Source: Cellulomonas shaoxiangyii (GTDB taxonomy: Bacteria > Actinomycetota > Actinomycetes > Actinomycetales > Cellulomonadaceae). From it: 64,000 bases of DNA. Every line of letters starts with the position of its first letter. Position 1 is the first letter of the stretch. Under the pieces are notes generated by a model. That model was not told where the DNA came from. It was given only the letters and a program-made list of their open reading frames with translations, and searched no databases. The position numbers were made by a program, and so were the translations under genes. The stretch spans positions 744,001-808,000 of the forward strand of contig NZ_CP039291.1 of assembly GCF_004798685.1 (NCBI RefSeq), read 5' to 3'. Below are positions 1,568 through 33,239 of this stretch, piece after piece.

Positions 1568-3143
1568 ACCGCGTCCCGCGCACGCGTCGGCCTCCGTCGC
1601 CGTGCGCGGGCTCACCGTCGCCCACCAGGGCACCGTGGTGCTCGACGGGCTGGACCTCGACCTGGTGCCCGGCCGCGTGCACGTCCTGCTCGGCGCGTCG
1701 GGGGCCGGCAAGTCGACGGTGGTCGCGGCCCTCACCGGGACGCTCGCCGCCGGCGCACGCACCACGGGCACCGCGACCCTCGTGGCGAGCGGCCGGACCA
1801 CCGCGCTCGTGCCGCCCGCGCGGGAGGTGCGCCGGCTGCGCGGCCGCGTCGTCGGCACCGCGCCCCAGGGCGCGGGCGCTGCGTTCACGCCGACCGCGAC
1901 CCTCGCGGACCAGCTCCGCGAGGTGCAGCGGGCCGGGGGACGCGGCCCGCGGCTCGGCGCGGCGCACCCCCACCGGGCGGCCGGCGACGCCGAGCAGCTC
2001 GCGGAGCTCGCGCACGCCGCCGGGGTCGACCCGGCGTGGCTCACCCGGTACCCGCACCAGCTGTCCGGCGGCCAGCTCGCGCGCCTCAACCTGGTCGCCG
2101 CGATGGTCAACCACCCGCCCGTCCTGCTGGCCGACGAGCCGACGTCCGGCCTCGACGCGCAGGCCACGCGGACGGTCGGCGTGCTGCTCGCGTCCTACGC
2201 GCGGGCGGGGCACACCGTCCTCGTCATCACGCACGACGTCGCGCTGGCCCGCCAGGTCGCGGACACCGTCACGCGCGTGGCCGCGGGCCGGGTCGTCGCG
2301 CAGGGGAGCCCCGACGAGGTGCTGCGCGACCTCGCGCCGCCGGTGCGCTCGCGGGAGCCCGTGCCCGCGCACGCCCCGACGCTCGCGGCGCACGGCGTCG
2401 TCGTCGTGCGCGGCGGGCGCGCGGTCCTGGCGCCGACCGACGTCGCCGTGCGCGCGGGGGAGGTGGTCGGCCTGACCGGGCCGTCCGGCGTCGGCAAGTC
2501 GAGCCTCGCCGCGGTGCTGGCCCAGCTCGAGGCACCCGCGGCGGGGCACGTCACGCTCGCCGGGCGGCGCGTGCCGGGTGCCGGCCTCGACCTGCCGCCC
2601 GCGCAGCGGCGCCGCGTCGCGTGGGTCTCGCAGCACCCGCGCACCGCCGTGGACGCCCGCATGACCCTGCGCCGCGCCATCGAGCTGCCCGCGCGGCTCG
2701 CCGGCCGCGACGTCGACGCGGCCGCGGCGGCCGCCGCCGTCGGGCTGGACGCGGCCCTGCTCGGGCGCCGTCCGCACGAGGTGTCCGGCGGGGAGCTGCA
2801 GCGCGCGTGCGTCGCCCGGGCGCTGGCCCTCCAGCCGGAGTTCCTCGTGCTGGACGAGGTGACGTCCATGCTCGACGACCGCACCGCCGCGGACGTCCTC
2901 GACACGGTCCACCGGGTCGCGGCCGCCGGCACCGGCGTGCTCCTGGTCAGCCACGACGTGGCGGCGCTGCGCACGGTCTGCGACCGTGTGCTGTCCTTGC
3001 GTCCGGCCGACGGCGGCGCGGTGCTGGAGACCTGGGCGGCGACCGCCACCACGGCCGGCACCGGGCCCGCCCGACCGCCGGCCGCCCTGCCGTCCCCCAC
3101 CCCGAGCCCCGTCCGGAAAGGCACCGAGACCGCATGCACCTGA
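1560..3143 (+). CDS. ABC transporter ATP-binding protein with two fused ATPase domains
   Basis: A 527-residue protein carrying both importer ATPases in one chain, equivalent to NikD plus NikE. Domain 1 shows Walker [10 protein letters not shown], signature LSGGQ and Walker B VLLADEP. Domain 2 repeats this with [14 protein letters not shown] and FLVLDEV. Both appear catalytically complete. The start codon overlaps the upstream permease by 8 bases, and the last codons overlap the ureA start by 10 bases, which ties this transporter into the urease operon. The inferred role is to drive nickel uptake for urease assembly; peptide transport is the alternative. Confidence 0.88.
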
Positions 3144-3436
3144 CCCCCGCCGACCAGGAGAAGCTGCTGCTCGCCGTGGCGGGCATGGTCGCCCGCGACC
3201 GCCTCGCGCGCGGCGTGCGGCTCAACCACCCCGAGACCGTGGCGCTGCTGACCACGTGGGTCATCGAGCGCGCACGCGACGGCGCGTCCGTCGCCGAGCT
3301 GATGGAGTCGGGCCGCCACGTGCTCACGCGGGACGACGTGATGCCCGAGGTCGCGGACATGCTCACCGACGTCCAGGTGGAGGCGACCTTCGACGACGGG
3401 CGCAAGCTCGTCACCCTCCACCAGCCGATCGCCTGA
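3134..3436 (+). CDS. ureA: Urease subunit gamma
   Basis: A 100-residue UreA, the normal family length. It shows the expected N-terminus ([20 protein letters not shown]), the LNHPE segment and the C-terminal VTLHQPI motif. It forms the urease (UreABC)3 assembly with the beta and alpha parts encoded by the next gene. The ATG at 3134 lies within the last codons of the transporter ATPase gene, so nickel importer and enzyme are probably expressed together. The gap to the next gene is 32 bases and contains GAGGAGAA, a good ribosome binding site. Confidence 0.97.
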
Positions 3437-3468: not shown

Positions 3469-5565
3469 ATGGCCCACCACGCCACCAGCGGCCCGGGTGC
3501 CGTCCGAGTCGCCGACGGCACGGTCGCGCTGAACGCCGACCGCGCCCCGCACGAGCGCATCGAGCTCGTGGTGCTCAACACCGGCGACCGGCCCGTGCAG
3601 ATCGGCTCCCACCTGCACCTGCCGGACGCCAACCCGGCCCTGCGCTTCGACCGCGCGGCCGCCCACGGGTTCCGGCTCGACGTGCCCGCCGGCACGTCCC
3701 AGCGCTTCGAGCCGGGGGCCTCCCGCACGGTCACCGCCGTCACCCTGCGCGGGGCGCGCCGCGTGCCCGGCATCCGCCGCGGCAAGGAGGACGGCGGCGA
3801 GCTCGGGCCCGTCGTCGTCCCGGACGCCGCTCCCGACGCGTCGCCCGCCGCTCCGGTGCCGGCGCTCGTCGTGCCGCGCGCGCGGTACGCGGCCCTCTAC
3901 GGCCCCACGGTGGGCGACCAGGTGCGCCTCGGGGACACGGACCTGTGGATCGAGGTCGAGGAGGACCGCACCGTCGGCGGCGACGAGGCCGTGTTCGGCG
4001 GTGGCAAGTCCATCCGCGAGTCGATGCTGCAGGGGTCGACGACGCGGGCCGAGGGCGCCCCCGACACCGTCATCACCAACGTCGTCGTGCTCGACTGGTG
4101 GGGCGTGGTCCGCGCGGACGTCGGCATCCGCGACGGCCGGATCGTGGCCCTCGGCAAGGCCGGCAACCCCGACGTGGCCGACGGCGTGCACCCCGCGCTG
4201 CGCATCGGCCCGTCCACCGACGTCATCAGCGGCGAGGGGCGGATCCTCACGGCCGGCGGCTTCGACGCCCACGTGCACCTGATCTCCCCGTCGCAGGTGC
4301 ACGAGGCGCTGGCCACGGGCATCACCACGATCGCGGGCGGGGGCACCGGCCCGTCCGAGGGCACCAAGGCCACCACCGTCACGCCCGGCGCGTGGCACCT
4401 GCGCGCGATCCACCGCAGCCTCGACCACCTGCCCGTCAACGTGCTGCTGCTCGGCAAGGGCAACACCGTCAGCGCCGCGGGGCTCGCGGAGCAGGCGCTC
4501 GCGGGCGCCGCGGGGTACAAGGTGCACGAGGACTGGGGCTCGACGCCGGCCGCGCTCGACGCCGCGCTGCGGGCCGCGCAGGAGTGGGGCCTGCAGGTCG
4601 CGCTGCACTCCGACTCGCTCAACGAGGCGGGCTTCCTCGAGTCCACGGTCGGTGCGATCGGGGGACGCTCGATCCACGCCTTCCACACCGAGGGCGCGGG
4701 CGGCGGGCACGCCCCCGACATCATGCGGCTGGCGGGCGAGCCCTACGTCCTGCCCGGCTCGACCAACCCCACGCTGCCGCACACCCGCAACACCGTCGCC
4801 GAGCACCTCGACATGCTCATGGTGTGCCACCACCTGAACCCGCGGGTGCCGGAGGACCTGGCGTTCGCGGAGTCGCGCATCCGCGCCACGACGATCGCGG
4901 CCGAGGACGTGCTGCACGACATGGGCGCGATCTCCATGACGTCGTCCGACGCCCAGGCGATGGGCCGCATCGGCGAGGTCGTCACGCGGACCTGGCAGGT
5001 CGCGCACGTGATGAAGCACCGCCGCGGCGCGCTGTCGGGCGCCCTGCCGGCCGACAACGAGCGCGCCCGCCGGTACGTCGCGAAGTACACGATCAACCCG
5101 GCGATCGCGCACGGGGTCGACGCCGAGATCGGGTCGGTGGAGGTCGGCAAGCTCGCCGACCTCGTGCTGTGGGACCCGCGGTTCTTCGGGGTGCGGCCGG
5201 ACGTCGTCGTCAAGGGCGGCGCCCTCGTGTGGGGCGCGCTCGGCGACCCCAACGCGTCCATCCCCTCGCCGCAGCCGGTGCTCCTGCGGCCCGCGCTCGC
5301 CGACGCGGCGGGCGCGGACCACTCCGTCTCCTTCGTCGCGCCGGCGGCCCTCGCCGACGGGCTGGCCGAGCGGCTGGGCCTGCGGCGGCGGCTCGCGGCG
5401 GTCGCCGACACCCGCGAGGTGACCAAGGAGCACATGCGGAACAACGACGTGTGCCCGCGCATCGACATCGACCCCGAGACCTTCGGGATCGAGGTGGACG
5501 GCGAGCGCGTGGAGCCGGCACCCGTCGACGAGGTCCCGCTCGCCCGCCTCTACTCGATGTTCTGA
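3469..5565 (+). CDS. ureC: Urease beta-alpha fusion (UreB-UreC in one chain)
   Basis: A 698-residue protein joining the beta subunit (about residues 1-106) to the alpha subunit (about 133-698) through a short Ala/Pro-rich linker, with no stop or internal frame change. All nickel-site residues are visible: H268 and H270 (HVH), the lysine to be carbamylated K351 (GYKVHEDW), H380, H406 and D494. The flap Cys453 and catalytic His454 lie in MVCHHLNP. The beta part has [10 protein letters not shown]. Hydrolyses urea to ammonia and carbamate in the cytoplasm. Separate ureB and ureC genes are usual in bacteria, and Helicobacter fuses gamma with beta, so beta-alpha fusion is unusual. Confidence 0.95.
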
Positions 5566-5632
5566 TGGTGGCGTCCTGATGGTGGCGTCCTGATGGTGGC
5601 GTCCTGATGGCGGCGTCCTGATGGCGGCGCCC
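5563..5632 (+). repeat. Five tandem 14-bp units, each with an overlapping stop-start TGATG
   Basis: The unit TGATGGTGGCGTCC is repeated five times exactly every 14 bases, at 5563, 5577, 5591, 5605 and 5619 (the last two with one or two substitutions). The first TGA is the stop of the urease fusion gene and the last ATG (5621) is the ureF start. Each internal ATG opens a four-codon reading frame (Met-Val/Ala-Ala-Ser) that ends on the TGA overlapping the next ATG. GGTGG in each unit could act as a weak ribosome binding site. This looks like slippage duplication of a coupled gene junction. Confidence 0.95.
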
Positions 5633-6331
5633 ACCACCGGTGCGGCGGCCGGCGTCGCACCGTCCGCCCTGCTGCTCACGCTGCTCGCGGACGCCCGCCT
5701 GCCGTCCGGCGGGCACACGCAGTCCGGCGGCCTCGAGCCGGCCGTGCGCGCCGGCATGCGGCCCGCGGACGTCGCGGCGTACGCGCGCGCCCGGCTGCGC
5801 ACGGTGACCGCCGTGGAGGCCGGGACGGCCGTCGTCGCGCGTGCCGCCGCCGCCGCGGGGGAGGACCTGGGACCGGTCGAGGCCGCGTGGGCCGCGCGGA
5901 CGCCGTCACCGGCGCTGCGTGCGAACGCGCGCCGGCTCGGCCGCGGCCAGCTGCGCGTCGCCCGGGCGCTGTGGCCGGCCGCCCCCGGCGACGGCCCGGA
6001 CCCGTGCGACGACCCGCGCGCCCGGACCTGGTCGCGGCCCGTGGTGCTCGGCGTCCTGGCGCACCGCGCCGGGGTGGACGCCCGCGACCTCGGTCGCCTC
6101 GTCGGCTACGACGACCTGCAGACTGTGGTCGCGGCGCTGCTCAAGCTCGAGCCCGGGGACCCGCTGGAGATGTCCGGCACGGTCCTCGCCCTCCTCCCGG
6201 AGGTCGAGGAGCTGGCCGCACGCGTGGCGCCGCTGCGCCGCCCCGGGGAGATCCCGGCCGGCGGGGCGCCGCTCATGGAACGGTGGGCGCAGGCCCACGC
6301 CGTCACGACCGAGAGGCTGTTCAGTGCCTGA
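5621..6331 (+). CDS. ureF: Urease accessory protein UreF
   Basis: A 236-residue UreF recognisable by [22 protein letters not shown] near the N-terminus. The family acts with UreD and UreG as the urease activation complex, gating nickel insertion and GTP hydrolysis. The start used is the last ATG of the upstream TGATG repeat; none of the earlier ATGs reads into this protein because each is closed after four codons. It overlaps the ureG GTG start by 8 bases. Confidence 0.95.
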
Positions 6332-7118
6332 GCACACCGCACCCGTCGCGCCCACGACCACGCCCGTCCCGCAGCGCGCGATGCGGCTCGGCGTCGCCGG
6401 CCCCGTCGGGACGGGCAAGAGCTCGCTCATCGCGACGCTCTGCCGCCGGCTGGCCGACCGGATCTCCCTCGCCGTCGTGACCAACGACATCTACACCGAC
6501 GAGGACGCGCGCTTCCTGCGCGCGGCCGGGGTGCTCGACCCCGAGCGCATCCGGCCCGTCGAGACCGGCGCGTGCCCGCACACCGCGATCCGCGACGACG
6601 TGACCGCGAACCTGCTCGCGGCGGAGGACCTGGAGGCGGACTTCGCCCCGCTCGACCTCGTCGTGATCGAGTCCGGCGGTGACAACCTGACCGCGACGTT
6701 CTCGCCCGCACTCGTGGACGCCCAGCTCTTCGTGCTCGACGTCGCCGGCGGCGGCGACGTGGTGCGCAAGGGCGGGCCGGGCATCGCGCGCGCGGACCTG
6801 CTCGTGGTCAACAAGACCGACCTGGGCCCGTACGTGGGCGTGGACGTCGAGCGGATGGTGCGCGAGGGACGCGAGGCGCGTGCGGGCCGCCCGGTGGTCG
6901 CGCTGTCGAAGCACGACGAGGCGTCCGTGCAGGAGCTGGTCGACTGGGTGCTCGGCACGCTCGCCTCCTACCGGGCCGGCGGTCACGTGGCGGTCGACCC
7001 GGGCCCGATGGCGCCGCACTTCCACGCCGACGAGGAGCACGAGCACGCGCACGGCGACGAGCCGCACACGCACGCCGAGCAGCACGCGCACGCGCCGGCC
7101 GGGACGCACCCGGCGTGA
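6324..7118 (+). CDS. ureG: Urease accessory GTPase UreG with C-terminal His-rich tail
   Basis: A 264-residue G3E-family GTPase. It has a P-loop at residues 26-34 (GPVGTGKSS), the metal-binding Cys84-Pro-His86, VVIESGGDN and the NKTD guanine-specificity motif. Residues 232-262 form a tail with ten histidines in 31 positions (for example [12 protein letters not shown]), a likely nickel-binding extension. Where UreG proteins carry such stretches they are more often N-terminal. The GTG at 6324 is chosen because it gives the usual few-base overlap with ureF; an ATG at 6381 would give a shorter protein starting just before the P-loop strand. No ureE is present. Confidence 0.95.
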
Positions 7119-8053
7119 CGCGGATCACCGTCGCGCCGGGCGCCGGCCGGTCGGTGCTCGGCCTGCGGTCGGGTGCCCTGGCCGTGCGCGTCCTCGCGCA
7201 GGACGAGGCGGGGGCACGGGTGGCGCTCGTCGCCAACGGCGCCCTGCTGCTCGCGGGGGACGCCGTCACGGTGCAGGTCGAGGTCGCCGACGGCGCCTGG
7301 CTGGAGGTCGTCGAGACCACCGGCACGGTCGCGTACGGGGGCCCGGAGCCGTCGCGCTGGGACGTCGACGTGCGGCTGGGCGCGGGGTCCACCCTGTGCT
7401 GGGACGCGCTGCCGTTCGTCGTCTCGCACGGGGCGCGCACGCACCGGCGCACCGACGTGCACCTCGGCGACGGCGCCCGCGCGCTGCTGCGCGAGACGCT
7501 CGTGCTGGGACGCGCCGGGCAGGCGGGCGGCGACCTGTGGACCCGGACCGCGGCGTACGACGCGCACGGCCTGCTGCAGGTCGAGGAGCTCGACCTGTCC
7601 CGGGCGACGCGGGGCCTGCCCGGGGTGCTGGCGACCACGGCCGCGGCGGCGGCGTGCCGCGTGGTCGACACGGTCCTGGCGCTGGGCTGGTCGCCGGCCG
7701 CGGACCCCGGCCCGGACGACGCGGCGACGCTCCTCGCGCTGGACCGCCCCGGTGCGGTGCTGCGCTGGCTCGGGTCCGAGCTGCACCGCGACACGGTCGG
7801 CGACCGCTGCGTGGCGGCGTGGGGGGACGAGCTCGCCGCCGGCCGCGCGGCACCGTCGTCGCACGCGGCACCGTCCTCGCACGCGCCCCCGCCCGCGCCC
7901 GCGCGGGTCGTCCCGACCCCGGCGCCGGCGCGCGACCCGGTCGCCCCCTCCCCGTCCCGCCCGCCGCGCGGCGCCGCGCCGCCCGGCCCACCCCCGCGCG
8001 CCGAGCGCGCCCACCCGACCTTCCGCACCACCGTCACCGAGGAGTACGCATGA
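7115..8053 (+). CDS. ureD: Urease accessory protein UreD/UreH
   Basis: A 312-residue UreD, the scaffold that binds apo-urease with UreF and UreG. Conserved family features include the [10 protein letters not shown] and [11 protein letters not shown] segments. The conserved domain ends near residue 245; the remaining ~65 residues are Pro/Ala/Ser-rich, including a repeated APSSHA, and look like a disordered extension. Starts on GTG overlapping the ureG stop by four bases (GTGA) and ends overlapping the next ATG (ATGA), so it is coupled on both sides. Confidence 0.9.
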
Positions 8054-33006: not shown

Positions 33007-33076
33007 GGCTGCTCCTCGGTCGTCGCCGGGGCTCGCCGGTGCGGCGGGCGCCGGGATGGCACGAGGCCAGTCTGTG

Positions 33077-33196
33077 GCACGACGGCACGACGGCACGACG
33101 GCACGACGGCACGACGGCACGACGGCACGACGGCACGACGGCACGACGGCACGACGGCACGACGGCACGACGGCACGACGGCACGACGGCACGACG
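33077..33196. repeat. Fifteen perfect tandem copies of an 8-bp unit
   Basis: GCACGACG is repeated 15 times without a mismatch from 33077 to 33196, then breaks off in GCAG. It lies between the small membrane-protein gene (start 33006) and the FMN reductase stop (33240). All six frames are open through it; on the minus strand each frame reads a repeated eight-residue pattern (RRAVVPSC) with GTG codons every 24 bases. Copy number should be unstable by slippage. Confidence 0.97.
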
Positions 33197-33239
33197 GCAG
33201 CACCCCGGCGCGCGAACCGCACCGCGCCGTGGGCCGGTC

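Follow-up and report, generated by a model that had tools for sequence, protein, structure and literature searches.

The fused urease gene ureBC and the accessory gene ureF of Cellulomonas shaoxiangyii are separated by five TGATG stop-start overlaps placed in tandem at exactly 14 bp from one another, and we propose that this array probably acts as a translational relay, in which serial termination and re-initiation would carry translation from ureBC to ureF. It lies in a stretch of 64,000 nucleotides, analysed as a whole and called here the window (Table 1). A ribosome finishing UreBC at the UGA at 5563 would re-initiate on the overlapping AUG at 5565, the first mini-frame would give MVAS, and the next UGA again overlaps an AUG, so that the hop would be repeated and, after four mini-frames, UreF would be started at 5621. 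That ribosomes actually make these hops we infer from the sequence. Every hop would occur at -1 nt, as at a normal TGATG pair, so that coupling could persist across an insertion of 56 nt. The array would go back to a stop-start overlap between ureBC and ureF that was duplicated in tandem, and it would have survived because the 14-bp length of its unit (2 mod 3) keeps the chain closed.

The TGATG units begin at 5563, 5577, 5591, 5605 and 5619, with ATG codons at 5565, 5579, 5593, 5607 and 5621, and the TGA closing every mini-frame shares one base with the following ATG. The exact spacing of the five units and the closure of each mini-frame on the next TGATG (MVAS three times, then MAAS) had been noted in a preliminary description of this DNA, and both are confirmed by our analysis; its count of up to four re-initiations on the way to ureF holds for the mini-frame starts, whereas the total to ureF is five initiations if ureF's own is included. 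Units 1 to 3 are identical, unit 4 differs from them by one base and unit 5 by two, and Tandem Repeats Finder reports the region 5562-5629 with period 14, 4.9 copies, 98% matches and a score of 122. The motif TGATG-N9-TGATG occurs four times in the window; in 100 shuffles that preserved the dinucleotides it averaged 0.01 and never reached four. A degenerate two-unit motif has no second site in the organism's own 3.9-Mb genome. With its four steps the urease array is the longest among the arrays read that separate two coding genes. In the ureF frame, from the last in-frame stop at 5591 to position 5700, the sole ATG, GTG or TTG codon is the one at 5621, and CTG codons stand at 5618, 5669, 5672 and 5681.

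Duplex energies, calculated with what we take to be the anti-Shine-Dalgarno letters, are -0.2 kcal/mol for the first ATG of the array, -6.3 for the second to fourth and -5.0 for the ureF start at 5621, compared with own-genome medians of -8.7 kcal/mol for direct TGATG starts (n=25) and -6.3 for gapped starts (n=442). A strong independent ribosome site for 5621, which the preliminary description had named as a point against its reading, was thus not found, although the start does have a weak one. ATG1 lacks a Shine-Dalgarno-like sequence, and therefore entry from ureBC would be its natural route; the weak Shine-Dalgarno-like sequence at ATG2 to ATG4 and at ureF makes direct initiation possible, which we count against the relay.

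According to Pfam, the operon reads ureA, ureBC, ureF, ureG, ureD, with ABC transporter genes upstream, the gamma subunit being encoded separately and the ureBC stop (TGA 5563-5565) forming part of the first TGATG. The genome also holds a second, diverged urease alpha-like stretch (L020, G000:C1:2098304-2098957), with 45% identity to the C-terminal 220 aa. Elsewhere in the window, positions 33076-33199 are occupied by a perfect 8-bp tandem repeat, GGCACGAC, in 15.5 copies.

Table 1. Features of the urease operon and of the ureBC-ureF array (positions in the window).
Feature	Positions	Strand	Remarks
ureA, urease gamma subunit	3134..3436	+	Pfam PF00547, E 3.5e-44
ureBC fusion, urease beta and alpha, 698 aa	3469..5565	+	PF00699, PF00449 and PF01979 in one frame
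relay unit 1 (putative)	5563..5576	+	TGATGGTGGCGTCC; ureBC stop overlaps ATG 5565
mini-frame 1	5565..5579	+	MVAS and stop
weak SD-like GGTGG	5567..5571	+	7 nt before next ATG; repeated in units 2 and 3; unit 4 has GGCGG
relay unit 2 (putative)	5577..5590	+	same letters as unit 1
mini-frame 2	5579..5593	+	MVAS and stop
relay unit 3 (putative)	5591..5604	+	same letters as unit 1
mini-frame 3	5593..5607	+	MVAS and stop
relay unit 4 (putative)	5605..5618	+	TGATGGCGGCGTCC
mini-frame 4	5607..5621	+	MAAS and stop
fifth TGATG, ureF start	5619..5632	+	TGATGGCGGCGCCC; likely parental junction (cf. single-TGATG relatives)
ureF, urease accessory protein	5621..6331	+	Pfam PF01730, E 4.7e-16
ureG	6324..7118	+	PF02492 on 6381-7115; GTG start at 6324 from gene finder
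ureD	7115..8053	+	PF01774, E 3.8e-17

Two Kribbella genomes (L022, L024) and one member of the own genus (L010) have a single TGATG at the ureC-ureF junction, and such a single overlap between ureC and ureF is likely to be the parental state. The ureF search matched 119 of 345 genomes, from which 30 loci and 40 more further down the hit list entered the survey; of its 85 loci 70 were placed and 15 were not, and, with one genome counted twice (G051, as L009 and L457), 69 distinct junctions remain. Among the 70 placed rows, 43 have no overlapping start, 20 start ureF directly at the overlap and seven show a closed chain, with no misframed or broken chain at any placed junction. Besides the window, the closed chains are those of L015 (MVVPG, then MTTR), L461 (MGARP), L480 (10 aa), L490 (one 14-nt step, MAGS), L478 (37 aa) and L476 (95 aa), and the two long bridging frames of L478 and L476 may be separate genes.

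A natural series of such steps occurs between aroA and rsgA. Across 13 species of one genus (g28), inner steps are absent in four, a single 14-bp step is present in one and a single 11-bp step in another, two species have two steps and two have three, while two further species carry closed chains entered via GTG and the last lacks an overlapping start. The TGATG pattern search itself had brought up three of the 13 (G063, G142, G177) but not the other ten. The spacers diverge across species, and the TGATG is mostly kept and the closed frame always. In G173 the altered stop is compensated by an ATGA overlap, and therefore the chain is still closed. Over 30 genomes of eight genera, 29 junctions could be placed: 15 are relays (in five genera), 10 are direct and four lack an overlapping start, none of the 29 being misframed or broken; 14 of the 15 relays close on TGATG and one on ATGA. 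It seems that the frame is kept rather than the product, as the peptides of the aroA-rsgA mini-frames are not conserved. One of these loci (L398, in G091) has a one-step relay whose 10-aa frame MRALAGRRGR covers 32 nt and includes a Shine-Dalgarno-like AGGGGG ahead of the TGATG of rsgA. The recC-recB junction was located in seven of the 13 g28 genomes, with a single TGATG in six and two extra steps in one, and between a zincin-like gene and tilS a chain stands at one of 14 placed loci (8 of the 22 loci were unplaced).

If the closed frame matters, periods of 14 and 17, which are 2 mod 3 and close the chain, can be compared with 13 and 16. Of 200 same-family genomes, 9 contain three TGATG spaced by 14 bp and none contains the reversed pattern. 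For the comparison of periods, with gaps of 8 to 12 in the family search, we counted each equal-gap array once and merged overlapping rows; most family-search rows outside periods 13, 14, 16 and 17 were omitted, and the class search was counted without two of its 8-bp arrays. In the family (221 genomes) periods 14 and 17 occur 22 times versus 3 for 13 and 16 (21 versus 3 without the window), in the class (246 genomes) 31 versus 11, and, pooled without the window and among the matches listed, 64 versus 23 (p=1.3e-5). Outside the family, the matches listed for the order are not biased in period (13 versus 9, p=0.52), nor are arrays of at least four copies in viral contigs (68 versus 73), and both results are counted against the relay. 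Only one of the 141 viral arrays of periods 13, 14, 16 and 17 passed the junction length test, and some of the period-16 ones are 8-bp arrays. In the viral loci covered, the TGATG arrays of at least four copies included 50 with a 14-bp and 55 with a 16-bp period, none of which passed that test. A pattern search with wide gaps was discarded, as in-frame coding matches dominated it.

The context of the arrays was read under a rule by which both sides count as coding when their frames fit, they span at least 60 codons and their third-position G+C is 0.9 or higher; arrays sharing the same flanks were treated as one (the second G129 copy, L364), and the order-level period-16 arrays G263:C4 and G559:C37 lay outside the arrays read. 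Of the arrays with a period of 14 or 17, 10 of 33 have a two-sided coding context, and of those with 13 or 16 none of 16 (two-sided p=0.020). Five of the latter 16 (L344 twice, L370 twice, L371) are arrays of an 8-bp unit, and 8 is also 2 mod 3; without them the comparison is 10 of 33 versus 0 of 11 (p=0.046). The ten arrays correspond to eight gene pairs, namely ureBC-ureF of the window and, in related actinobacteria, aroA-rsgA (three species), zincin-like peptidase-tilS, recC-recB, GT4-GDSL, rnc-mutM, an unknown gene-GT2 and GT4-GNAT. With the window excluded, all seven gene pairs have relay-compatible periods, the probability of which is 0.0016 if periods 13 to 17 are equally likely. Among 34 arrays of period 15 that were read, one (L093) satisfies the two-sided third-position rule; it was not counted as a junction, because neither side has a Pfam family and its second-position G+C of 0.69 and 0.80 resembles that of shadow frames of the other strand, and if counted it would make seven of eight pairs, with a chance of 0.0085 instead of 0.0016. 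The remaining 23 with period 14 or 17 do not separate two coding genes; the relay leaves them unexplained, which counts against it. Some of these 23 are near-junctions; in one, between 6-phosphogluconolactonase and O-methyltransferase genes (L026), the first start has been lost and the chain ends on ATGA. At L344 (G447:C2 near 829176) the 8-bp unit array TGATGCGG (ATG CGG TGA) stands directly before an ORF beginning MRTTLDIDPVVLSAARAKAAAE, which presumably encodes a protein resembling a VapB-type antitoxin.

A related signal was found across the own genome, in a sample of 1.6 Mb (80 stretches) where about 1,430 genes and, among them, 737 close co-directional pairs were called by a simple home-made gene finder that relies on codons. 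We considered pairs in which the next gene follows a TGA stop at a distance of 4 to 150 nt, defined the frame as start minus stop, modulo 3, so that frame 1 is the one reached via one bridging mini-frame, and compared pairs with an ATG or GTG overlapping the upstream stop with pairs without such a start. Frames 0, 1 and 2 hold 12, 55 and 37 pairs with an overlapping start and 92, 93 and 100 without, so that the ratio of frame 1 to frame 0 is 55:12 against 93:92 (p=5.2e-6); at gaps of up to 40 nt it is 26 versus 5 against 31 versus 25 (p=0.009). Among frame-1 pairs, a stop overlapping the downstream start was found in 35 of 55 with an overlapping start versus 27 of 93 without (p=6.1e-5). The bias rests on GTGA overlaps, the counts with ATG overlaps only being 10 versus 3 (p=0.25), and the few TGATG starts taken alone, with an overlapping start, fall in frames 0, 1 and 2 in numbers of 7, 2 and 4. 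A replicate in 400 kb of G168 has the same direction, though it is not significant (8 versus 2 against 23 versus 19, p=0.17; closure in 4 of 8 versus 8 of 23). The result is exploratory, because the analysis was designed after examples had been looked at, and some bridging frames at longer gaps may be real small genes. Moreover, closure on NTGA comes easily, because every base other than C yields a start when it precedes TGA, and we count this against the relay. The own genome contains a second, repeat-free multi-step relay by sequence (L545, position 9788, + strand; G000:C1 about 569789), in which MVAP is followed by VTRRR; it leads from a gene with a phosphoribosyltransferase domain into a 232-aa ORF starting on TGATG.

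Published work on coupling bears on the relay from both sides. According to one study of E. coli and Haloferax, re-initiation is almost lost at gaps of about 20 nt (PMC10666635); on that basis ureF, behind a gap of 55 nt, should be uncoupled if nothing bridges the gap. In phage fr constructs a ribosome that re-initiates picks the start nearest to the stop (PMC12548453), and by this rule together with the limit of about 20 nt (PMC10666635) a ribosome coming off ureBC would be predicted to begin at 5565 and to be handed along the chain. Other work in E. coli, cited in PMC12548453, describes coupling at +25 nt and weaker coupling at +50 to +350 nt, by which the bridge would be unnecessary, and this we count against the relay.

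The array may also be regarded as a neutral tandem repeat, in which slippage duplicated the junction, ureF is started from its own weak site or by scanning, and the closure of the frame is irrelevant. The near identity of the units, which would then be young, speaks for this, as do the weak Shine-Dalgarno-like GGCGG ahead of ureF, the location of most tandem TGATG arrays read outside pairs of coding genes, and the unbiased periods in the order outside the family (among the matches listed) and in viral contigs. It would not account, however, for the excess of relay-compatible periods in family and class, for the fact that all ten of the arrays read between coding genes (periods 13, 14, 16 and 17) have 14 or 17, or for aroA-rsgA chains that stay closed at all 29 junctions despite diverging spacers, and we consider it unlikely. 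The relay itself is weighted lower than it would otherwise be, because the order-level count is unbiased and 8-bp arrays are among the controls.

Damping or tuning of the accessory protein relative to the enzyme had been suggested in the preliminary description along with re-initiation; the relay part of that interpretation is supported, as only relay-compatible periods occur at other gene pairs, while a reduction of UreF by loss at each hop would be, we infer, a side effect and not the selected purpose. That the array was selected as a tuning device, losing ribosomes at the hops and lowering UreF with copy number as the dial, appears improbable to us. UreF is presumably required in smaller amounts than the enzyme, and the variation of aroA-rsgA from 0 to 3 steps means that such a dial exists in principle, but arrays stand at unrelated pairs (recC-recB, tilS, mutM, rsgA) with no obvious reason in common for a lower dose. 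As a further possibility, five exact repeats might serve as binding sites, and the stop-start pattern would then be a by-product of an RNA or DNA element such as a structure, a riboswitch or regulator sites. We rejected the array as an RNA structure or known RNA family, since it folds no better than shuffled sequence (z +1.22, with 179 of 200 shuffles folding at least as well) and a search of 5300-5900 against Rfam gave no match at E up to 1; taken with the aroA-rsgA spacers, which vary while the TGATG mostly and the closed frame always persist, this makes such an element very improbable.

The serial relay proposed here has its closest natural relatives in repeats known from operon junctions of mycobacteria, the MIRUs, whose unit is 77 bp long and thus also 2 mod 3. 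A MIRU is a short repeat with an internal small frame coupled to the neighbouring gene, and therefore its insertion at a junction costs little (PMC12548453); several units may stand together, as between senX3 and regX3 (PMC7884335). The urease array has the same arrangement in its sequence, with four mini-frames each closed on the next start. MIRUs, however, are longer, dispersed, thought to be mobile and spaced at -4 nt (PMC12548453), whereas the two-unit motif of the 14-bp urease array is present at one place in 3.9 Mb, looks locally duplicated and has a spacing of -1 nt (TGATG). Coupling at a single TGATG or ATGA is well described (PMC6728339, PMC10666635); it depends on a one-base overlap of stop and start across which the same ribosome is thought to continue, and in most studies strongly on distance (PMC6728339, PMC10666635, PMC12548453). 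The overlap of the upstream stop with a start by 1 or 4 nt is found at 5563 and at each later step, but ureF does not begin at that first overlap; it starts at the fifth TGATG, 56 nt further on. In these papers coupling consists of one overlap per gene pair, and the urease array has five in series with 55 nt bridged by four mini-frames. Bicistronic design leaders of synthetic biology likewise use a short frame that delivers the ribosome to a coupled start (PMC12548453), but they are engineered with one leader, whereas the array is natural, within an operon and has four in series. The small intergenic frame mgtQ, between mgtC and mgtB of Salmonella, promotes translation of the next gene, and does so, as far as the available part of PMC8092293 goes, via ribosome-destabilising residues and RNA structure and not by serial closure of frames. 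A full-text literature search, with subscription papers mostly outside its coverage, returned no report of serial TGATG relays.

We would tentatively suggest, as a possibility held with less confidence than the relay itself, that bridging mini-frames constitute a general unannotated layer of high-GC actinobacterial operons, in which frames of a few codons, reaching from the upstream stop to the downstream start, might carry the ribosome over gaps, and relays might gain and lose steps of 2 mod 3 through tandem duplication, the four-step urease array being the longest read between coding genes. It is debated whether the same ribosome walks on or merely opens the RNA for another (PMC12548453), and this debate becomes testable with a natural series in which real gene pairs are bridged by 0 to 4 steps: putting the chain out of frame at constant distance should have an effect only if one and the same ribosome moves along it. 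Should the frame bias seen across the genome hold, many short operon gaps would be translated, and the rule that coupling requires direct overlap would gain a natural bypass.
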